Source: Catenuloplanes indicus
GTDB taxonomy: Bacteria > Actinomycetota > Actinomycetes > Mycobacteriales > Micromonosporaceae
NCBI RefSeq assembly: GCF_030813715.1
Contig: NZ_JAUSUZ010000001.1
Span: forward strand, 6,448,001 to 6,512,000
Reading direction: 5' to 3'
DNA length: 64,000 nt
The notes under the pieces are model-generated. The model was not told the DNA's origin and ran no database searches. It saw nothing but the letters and a program-made list of their open reading frames with translations. The position numbers and the translations under genes were made by a program. Below are positions 54,054-55,341 of the stretch, in pieces. Each line of letters opens with the position of its first letter. Position 1 is the stretch's first letter.

Positions 54054-54059
54054 TAGCGT
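54054..54059 (+). promoter_or_regulatory. -10 box of a leaderless leader-peptide transcript
   Basis: TAGCGT (TANNNT) followed by seven bases and then the ATG of a 12-codon ORF: the geometry of a leaderless mRNA. The same TAGCGT plus 7 nt arrangement occurs at 37369. Confidence 0.5.
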
Positions 54060-54066
54060 GCCGGTC

Positions 54067-54105
54067 ATGCGTCTCGTCGTGTGCTCCCCGCCGGTCGCCC
54101 GCTGA
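54067..54105 (+). CDS. 12-residue leader peptide MRLVVCSPPVAR
   Basis: A 12-codon ORF with no Shine-Dalgarno, starting where the predicted transcript starts. It contains one Cys and a Pro-Pro pair. Its TGA (54103-54105) is exactly the loop of an 11-bp hairpin. 123 bp downstream begins a DMT-family transporter. The design suggests ribosome-dependent attenuation; cysteine (as in mycobacterial leaderless attenuators), Pro-Pro stalling or an antibiotic are possible signals. Not proven. Confidence 0.55.
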   Translation: MRLVVCSPPVAR

Positions 54106-54137
54106 GCGGGCGACCGTAAGGGCCGTCTTTCCGGCCC
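54092..54137 (+). terminator. two hairpins overlapping and following the leader ORF (attenuator candidate)
   Basis: Hairpin 1: perfect 11-bp stem CGGTCGCCCGC/GCGGGCGACCG (54092-54116) with the stop codon TGA as loop. Hairpin 2: GGGCCG/CGGCCC (54120-54137), 6-nt loop. A ribosome on the leader ORF would melt hairpin 1. Confidence 0.6.
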
Positions 54138-54228
54138 GGTGATGCCGCAAGCGCCTCGATGCGCGCGGCGGGTGGTCGCTGCCCTCACTCCGCAGCCCTG
54201 ATCCGACCATCCGCAGTGGAGCATCCGC

Positions 54229-55341
54229 ATGTCCATCGATACTTCCGCACCCGCATCCGTCGCCTCCCCGGCCGCGCGCGGCACGAATCCCCTCTGGCGC
54301 GGCATGGCGTTGATCGCCCTGGCCGCCGTGGCCTGGGGCACCGGCGGCGCGGTGGCCGCCGTGCTGTACCGCACCGGCGGCCTCGGCCCGATCGCCGTCT
54401 CCTACTGGCGTTTCGTGATCGGAGCGCTCGCCCTCGCCGGGTATCTGGCCACACGCACCGCCCGCCACCGGGCGTCGGCACGCCGGGCCTCGGCCCGCGA
54501 TGAGCACGGCGAGGCCGGCCTCGCCGTCACCGACGGCTACGCGGCCTTCCACGGCGGCGCCGGCCCGGCCGTCGCCGCACATGGCGATGCCCGTAGAGCC
54601 GCCGCGCACGGCGATGCCCGTAGAGCCGGCGCCGCGAGCGCACGCCGTCGCCGGTTCCGCCGCCTGCTGATGGCCGTCGCGACCGGCGTCGGGCTCGCCG
54701 TCTACCAGTCCGCGTTCTACGTCAGCATCGCCGAGACCGGCCTCGCCGTCGCCACCGTCGTCACGCTCGGCGCCGGTCCGATCCTGATCGCCGTCGGCGC
54801 CCGCGTCCTGCTCGCCGAACGCCTCGGCCACGCCGGTGCCGCCGCCATCACGCTCGCGCTCGCCGGCCTGGTCGCGCTGTCCCTGGACAGCGGCGCCACC
54901 GGCCCGAACCCGGCCCTCGGCATCACCTGCGCGCTCTTCTCCGCGTTCGGCTACGCCGTGGTCACGCTGATCGGCCGCACCGCCGACGGCGCCGGCGACC
55001 CGTTCCGGACCTCGCTGACCGGTTTCCTGGTGGGCGGCGTCGTCCTCACCCCGTTCGCGCTGGCCGAGGGCGTACTGCCGAGCGCTGCCGGTCTGCCGGT
55101 GACCATCGGCTGGCTGCTCTACCTGGGGGTGGTCGCGAGCGCGCTCGCCTACGGCCTGTTCTTCGCCGGCCTGGCGCAGGTGAGCGCCACCACCGCGGCC
55201 GTCGTCACGCTGCTCGAACCGGTCGCGGCCGCATTGCTCGCGGTCGTGTTCCTCGGTGAGCGCCTCACCCCGGCGGTCCTCACCGGCATGCTCCTGTTGC
55301 TCGGCGCGGTCGCCGCCCTCGCCTACCCGGCCCGCCGCTGA
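54229..55341 (+). CDS. EamA/DMT-family exporter
   Basis: A 370-residue, ten-helix inner-membrane transporter with two EamA repeats (about 20-180 and 205-360; e.g. LIALAAVAWGTGGAVAAVLY, TTAAVVTLLEPVAAALLAVV). Members export metabolites or amino acids; the substrate is not known. Between helices 2 and 3 there is an extra loop of about 60 Ala/Arg/His-rich residues, with a tandemly duplicated AAHGDARRA, absent from typical members. ATG follows GGAG. Preceded by a leader ORF and hairpins at 54067-54137. Confidence 0.88.
   Translation: MSIDTSAPASVASPAARGTNPLWRGMALIALAAVAWGTGGAVAAVLYRTGGLGPIAVSYWRFVIGALALAGYLATRTARHRASARRASARDEHGEAGLAVTDGYAAFHGGAGPAVAAHGDARRAAAHGDARRAGAASARRRRFRRLLMAVATGVGLAVYQSAFYVSIAETGLAVATVVTLGAGPILIAVGARVLLAERLGHAGAAAITLALAGLVALSLDSGATGPNPALGITCALFSAFGYAVVTLIGRTADGAGDPFRTSLTGFLVGGVVLTPFALAEGVLPSAAGLPVTIGWLLYLGVVASALAYGLFFAGLAQVSATTAAVVTLLEPVAAALLAVVFLGERLTPAVLTGMLLLLGAVAALAYPARR
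54574..54627 (+). repeat. 27-bp tandem duplication inside the DMT transporter gene
   Basis: Units 54574-54600 and 54601-54627 differ by two silent changes and encode AAHGDARRA twice in the extra cytoplasmic loop. Confidence 0.85.

Follow-up and report, generated by a model that had tools for sequence, protein, structure and literature searches.

Leaders of erm genes are described by a helix numbering in which 1:2 and 3:4 stand against 2:3. Among the systems that come closest to the locus described here, Erm-type attenuators such as the ermC leader peptide combine a short ORF with a downstream Shine-Dalgarno that is exposed when a ribosome stalls within that ORF (PMC6685928). Consecutive proline codons are known to stall ribosomes, which EF-P relieves, and a leader ORF with PPP governs mgtCBR in Salmonella (PMC5299641); in E. 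coli reporters, pausing was weak at TPPP and intermediate at LPPP (PMC8129111). In actinobacteria, leaderless short ORFs with a polycysteine tract have been cited as translation attenuators of mycobacterial cysteine genes (Canestrari 2020, cited in PMC13236596), and the Streptomyces leader peptides LeuL, TrpL, IlvL and ThrL are also leaderless (PMC8079986). The leaderless genes of Streptomyces lividans carry a TAnnnT box, with the transcription start at a mean distance of 6.3 nt (PMC8079986). No leader peptide for an EamA/DMT exporter is described in the literature that we searched, which lay mostly outside the subscription journals.

A leaderless-type uORF ahead of an EamA exporter gene

In the window (the whole 64,000-nt stretch of Catenuloplanes indicus DNA; all features below lie on the + strand), a -10 box TAGCGT (54054..54059) stands 7 nt ahead of an ATG (54067-54069) that opens a leaderless-type uORF of 12 codons, encoding MRLVVCSPPVAR and ending with TGA at 54103-54105 (54067..54105). 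This spacing implies a transcription start at the start codon, give or take a base or two. The end of the uORF, CGGTCGCCCGC (strand 1, 54092..54102), is the 5' arm of a stop-codon hairpin whose 3' arm is GCGGGCGACCG (strand 2, 54106..54116); all 11 of 11 base pairs form over 54092-54116, and the TGA is the entire loop. A second hairpin, GGGCCG-TCTTTC-CGGCCC, follows at 54120..54137 and is mostly limited to the closest relatives in alignment A1. The original prediction, which had named the box, the spacer, the peptide, the TGA loop of a perfect 11-bp stem and the second hairpin, was exact to the base. The downstream gene starts at the ATG at 54229 and encodes an EamA/DMT-family exporter of 370 aa (54229..55341; Pfam EamA PF00892, E=1e-27), with its Shine-Dalgarno GGAGCA at 54218..54223 (GGAG at 54218-54221). 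The 175-nt region folds with -90.9 kcal/mol, compared with -78.0 ± 4.2 for dinucleotide shuffles (z=-3.1), and Rfam covariance models gave no meaningful match in the window or in seven further leader loci. The window's exporter contains a low-complexity insert of ~60-70 aa between predicted membrane segments (54460-54660), in which an AHGDARRA motif is repeated and whose length varies among close species. The exporter of locus L002 (genome G003) has, instead of the insert, a long N-terminal extension of Ala/Ser/Pro repeats; its leader is intact.

EamA homologue loci were drawn from two sources, related genomes and a species-level genome collection, and about 87 of 96 EamA/DMT homologue loci carried a leaderless-type ORF with Pro-Pro, 2-3 further codons and a stop at a stop-codon hairpin. 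Micromonosporaceae, Streptosporangiaceae, Streptomyces and Geodermatophilaceae are among their sources. A strict scan (TAnnnT, 5-10 nt, ATG/GTG, 7-24 codons, PP 1-4 codons from the stop) over both strands of 707 kb of homologue loci returned 89 matches, 87 of which were the leader ahead of the exporter. Across homologues the uORF is mostly 8-16 codons long, with TAnnnT 6-7 nt 5' of ATG/GTG; the spacer is 6 or 7 nt in 72 of 77 distinct leaders, although the scan itself demanded TAnnnT, which makes the presence of a -10 box partly circular. The -10 spacing suggests a leaderless transcript. Examples of the peptides are MRLIISPPPAR (Microtetraspora, Microbispora corallina), MTLIVSPPPAR (Microbispora), MPMTVLPPPAA (Streptomyces), MRLCVLPPPAR (Phytohabitans), MHRCFPITPPPRS (L024, from the window's own family) and MTTGRALVLPPPRS (a Modestobacter MAG).

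The 86 distinct uORFs all contain PP (the set was selected for it), and PPP occurs in 57 of them. The entropy over the two proline codons is 0, 0, 1.71 and 0, 0, 1.16 bits, so that only third bases vary; V or I stands three codons ahead of Pro-Pro, and Pro-Pro lies 2 codons from the stop in 70 uORFs and 3 codons from it in 16. The coding frame is thus under selection, since the proline codons vary solely at the third base while the pattern of residues and spacing is kept. Judged by these comparisons, Pro-Pro is conserved as amino acids, and it, rather than Cys or MRL, is the constant part of the peptide. The original prediction had mentioned the Pro-Pro pair (codons 8 and 9, 54088..54093, the presumed stall site) only in passing, and that pair turned out to be the invariant element, whereas the cysteine and the MRL start listed beside it are not conserved. 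Cysteine occurs in just 16 of the 86 distinct peptides (once in the window peptide) and is missing from 70, so that the proposed cysteine-responsive analogy is not supported, and MRL is too variable among the uORFs to bear the weight it had been given.

The association with the exporter was also followed beyond these loci. A covariance model, R1, was built on the promoter box, uORF and stop hairpin and run against genomes of the phylum (296), the family (61) and the class (247). The strong matches examined lay directly 5' of EamA genes. Among matches unused in model building with E<=5e-5, 24 of 25 were at EamA genes and the remaining one was without a uORF; two matches, L099 and L101, belong to other classes of the phylum and likewise lay ahead of EamA genes. 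In the window's own genome the leader matched at 5.7e-10 and the next best hit at 0.009, seven orders weaker, despite several EamA paralogues. By these searches the leader is linked exclusively to EamA genes. Second-tier matches (E about 1e-4) were considered as other target genes and rejected, as they are the 5' ends of apparent proline dehydrogenase genes. Such 5' ends (MLRSVILAASRSS...) were seen near 1501-1570 in L107, L148, L151, L153 and L154; this gene appears leaderless itself, with TAnnnT 6-8 nt before its ATG, and recurs across Micromonosporaceae.

RNA architecture and co-evolving pairings

Four elements recur in the minimum-energy folds of many leaders, namely a helix P1, the stop-codon hairpin (1:2), P3 (a GC-rich hairpin) and, just 5' of the Shine-Dalgarno, hairpin 3:4. 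P1 is a long-range helix that joins codons from the front of the uORF to the exporter Shine-Dalgarno; in the window, folding and co-evolution place TGCTCC (the Cys6-Ser7 codons, 54082..54087) as the core of the anti-Shine-Dalgarno strand, opposite GGAGCA. P3, the central GC-rich hairpin, lies at 54144..54169 according to the predicted fold and covarying pairs. Strand 3, TGGTCGCTGCCCTCA (54173..54187), has either strand 2 or strand 4 as its partner, and strand 4, the GACCATCC region (54205..54212), pairs with it in P4 immediately 5' of the Shine-Dalgarno. The complementarity of TGC-TCC to the Shine-Dalgarno and the second, downstream partner of the stem's 3' arm, about 50-60 nt ahead of the exporter start, both go beyond what had been predicted.

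The 2:3 pairing sequences change by group (GCGGGCGGC/GCTGCCCGC, GAGCGGGGCGA/TCGCCCCGCTTC, AGCGAGGCGGTG/TGCCGCCTCGCT and GAGGGCGCA/TGCGCCCTC, with CGGGGACGC/GCGTCCCCG in another class of the phylum). The helix is imperfect in the window, where it contains a 2-nt bulge, and a group provisionally labelled Dactylosporangium-like is without it. In L015, L035, L039, L040, L043 and L045, the 5' arm of the hairpin contains the stop codon (e.g. GGTAACGA CCA TCGTTACC), strand 2:3 is absent, and P1 is very long and includes both the PP codons and the Shine-Dalgarno. In the PPPRS group, hairpin 3:4 itself covers AGGAG; leaders with a C-terminal PPPRS or similar (L019, L022, L023, L024, L142, L150, L170) have a local hairpin, GCTTCCGCGAC..GTCGCAGGAGC, over the Shine-Dalgarno. 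This subgroup is the cleanest Erm-like version and probably the best suited to experiments.

The pairings were evaluated by a permutation test in which the duplex energy of native partners was compared with that of partners shuffled among species (43 representatives, 20,000 permutations). The z values were -7.0 (1:2), -5.8 (2:3), -7.0 (3:4) and -10.0 (uORF:Shine-Dalgarno), and for each of the four pairings none of the 20,000 permutations was as good as the native mean; because the representatives are related, the p-values are approximate. The control pairings 1:3, 2:4 and uORF:3 were not significant among the same 43 representatives, so base composition alone is insufficient for the signal. 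In a held-out test with 18 representatives that the covariance model found later, the p-values were 0.00005 (1:2), 0.0006 (2:3), 0.00005 (3:4) and 0.007 (uORF:Shine-Dalgarno), compared with 0.09-0.97 for the controls. On this comparative evidence, the four pairings co-evolve.

Alignment-based analyses gave a complementary picture. For the stop hairpin, none of 500 shuffles matched the native alignment on paired cells plus covariation score, and in a Streptosporangiaceae-rich alignment 2:3 was 93% paired and too invariant to show covariation. RNAalifold on a MAFFT alignment recovered the stop hairpin, P3 and P4 and missed P1, since the MAFFT gaps break the P1 register. A duplex swap test of the whole uORF against the Shine-Dalgarno was weakly informative, because every uORF has C/U-rich, anti-Shine-Dalgarno-like bases. 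Partition-function chimeras gave 9.1 expected long-range pairs for native leaders compared with 6.5.

Together these data identify, at the level of sequence comparison, a conserved regulatory element and not a chance arrangement. Conservation of the peptide and stem in orthologues, which had been named as the decisive check, came out strongly in favour, through the loci, the held-out leaders and the covariance-model matches. The earlier view also holds up that the first hairpin must be opened when the leaderless-type peptide ORF is translated, and that exporter expression probably depends on this translation.

Proposed mechanism and competing readings

We consider it likely that the element is an Erm-type ribosome-mediated translational attenuator on a leaderless uORF, in which a stall at Pro-Pro exposes the exporter start. 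At rest, ribosomes would initiate at the 5'-terminal AUG, translate the short peptide and depart. The end of the uORF would then pair with the bases past the stop (1:2), placing the stop codon in the loop, while strand 3 would pair with strand 4 beside the Shine-Dalgarno and the front of the uORF with the Shine-Dalgarno itself (P1); in some families 3:4 itself would mask the Shine-Dalgarno. The exporter would thus stay untranslated. A ribosome held at Pro-Pro would cover both the anti-Shine-Dalgarno and strand 1, and strand 2, once freed, would pair with strand 3, opening 3:4 and exposing the exporter start. A ribosome stalled on the uORF would in this way probably switch the exporter on; that the stall occurs at Pro-Pro and turns the gene on is what we infer. 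Candidate signals include a shortage of EF-P or of charged Pro-tRNA, a proline analogue, an inhibitor of prolyl-tRNA synthetase and a peptidyl-transferase antibiotic. The residues preceding PP(P) in the uORFs include L and T, and by analogy with the E. coli reporters, weak or intermediate pausing would fit a sensor kept poised better than a permanent block.

Simulated ribosome footprints agreed with this scheme to a modest degree. With a footprint on PP, the mean predicted accessibility of the Shine-Dalgarno and start rose from 0.22 to 0.34 (46 leaders up, 8 down, n=74), and in the window the predicted rise in Shine-Dalgarno exposure was small (0.29 to 0.35). In most leaders shown, 2:3 was not part of the ON fold that free-energy folding ranked best. 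Because the footprint effect is modest and free-energy minima do not always pick 2:3, it is the comparison among species that carries the case for the ON fold.

Pro-Pro is not necessarily where the ribosome stalls, since P1 would be opened as well by one positioned on the start codon. The same switch might be triggered when drug-bound ribosomes are arrested on the uORF start or close to it, Pro-Pro doing no more than slow the ribosome, and the leader would then be a general sensor of translation stress. LSAP antibiotics do stall ribosomes at the start codons of Streptomyces uORFs (PMC12421871), and in the folding model footprints at the start codon and at PP opened the Shine-Dalgarno to the same extent (0.35 vs 0.34). 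This reading leaves the amino-acid-level conservation of Pro-Pro, 2 or 3 codons from the stop, unexplained; we regard it as unlikely but far from negligible, and our estimate for it overlaps with that for the Pro-Pro-stall attenuator.

Attenuation could instead act on transcription, if the stop-codon hairpin or a later one terminated, intrinsically or through Rho, unless a ribosome were stalled on the uORF. Such a mode has been described for Streptomyces ARE-ABCF uORFs (PMC12421871), and the stop-codon hairpins are GC-rich, a few of them preceding T-rich stretches (e.g. L061, GCTTTTCT). U-tracts are nevertheless lacking (TTTT within 25 nt past the stop in 4 of 91 leaders, with a T fraction there of at most 0.22), which makes intrinsic termination unlikely, and the strongest co-evolving pairing involves the Shine-Dalgarno, which a terminator would not explain. 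The anti-Shine-Dalgarno pairing and the 2:3 alternative make translational attenuation the likelier mode, and we consider transcription attenuation distinctly improbable. Translational coupling or re-initiation, by which ribosomes finishing the uORF would supply the exporter, has a precedent in mycobacterial leaderless uORFs proposed to feed downstream genes via overlapping start/stop tetramers (PMC4633059); here, by contrast, the uORF stop and exporter start do not overlap and are mostly 60-150 nt apart, with conserved helices filling the interval, and coupling is very improbable. Least credible of all is a ligand-binding riboswitch with an incidental ORF, as the multibranch architecture closed by a long-range helix might suggest, given the PP codon-position pattern, the lack of an obvious conserved unpaired core, the lack of an Rfam match and the free change of helix sequences among groups.

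Returning to the Pro-Pro-stall attenuator, a fuller proposal is that this uncatalogued Actinomycetota riboregulator detects, through its leaderless Pro-Pro ORF, faults in proline decoding or in peptide-bond formation and induces, by translational attenuation, one dedicated EamA exporter that removes the cause. This we offer tentatively, as almost as credible as its opposite. The element gives an exporter family a testable inducer logic, in which an agent that causes Pro-Pro stalling should point to the cargo.

Comparison with known leader systems

As a translational attenuator, the element is absent from Rfam and from the literature covered by our search. Its likeness to Erm-type attenuators is the closest in RNA logic. 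Both have a short leader ORF, whose translation here is supported by the codon pattern, and mutually exclusive helices 1:2/3:4 and 2:3 occur here too, weakly so in the window itself; the Shine-Dalgarno is, by prediction and co-evolution, sequestered in the resting state. The differences are that the uORF is leaderless-type, that the presumed stall is at Pro-Pro near the stop, that the anti-Shine-Dalgarno lies inside the uORF, and that the downstream gene encodes an EamA exporter with no known inducer rather than an rRNA methyltransferase. Because the downstream gene is an EamA transporter, this is not an erm leader and just works like one. The Salmonella mgtP/mgtCBR leader (PMC5299641) shares the consecutive proline codons (PPP in the majority of our uORFs), an operon with a transporter gene downstream and two alternative stem-loops. 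However, mgtP is a transcription attenuator from an unrelated lineage and, with a leader RNA of 296 nt, is not leaderless, and the leader described here probably does not share its transcriptional mode.

The actinobacterial systems resemble the element in how translation would begin. The mycobacterial polycysteine ORFs are, as cited, leaderless translation attenuators with a Cys tract ahead of cysteine genes, whereas here there is no Cys run and the gene is an exporter. LeuL, TrpL, IlvL and ThrL of Streptomyces precede biosynthesis and tRNA-ligase genes, contain the matching amino-acid codons and are mostly read as transcription attenuators. Leaderless initiation, stalling at polyproline and RNA switching of the Erm kind would come together in a single element, conserved across a phylum with many antibiotic producers. 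Given its partial likeness to the erm, mgtP and mycobacterial Cys attenuators, we file the leader under ribosome-mediated attenuation, in a new form.
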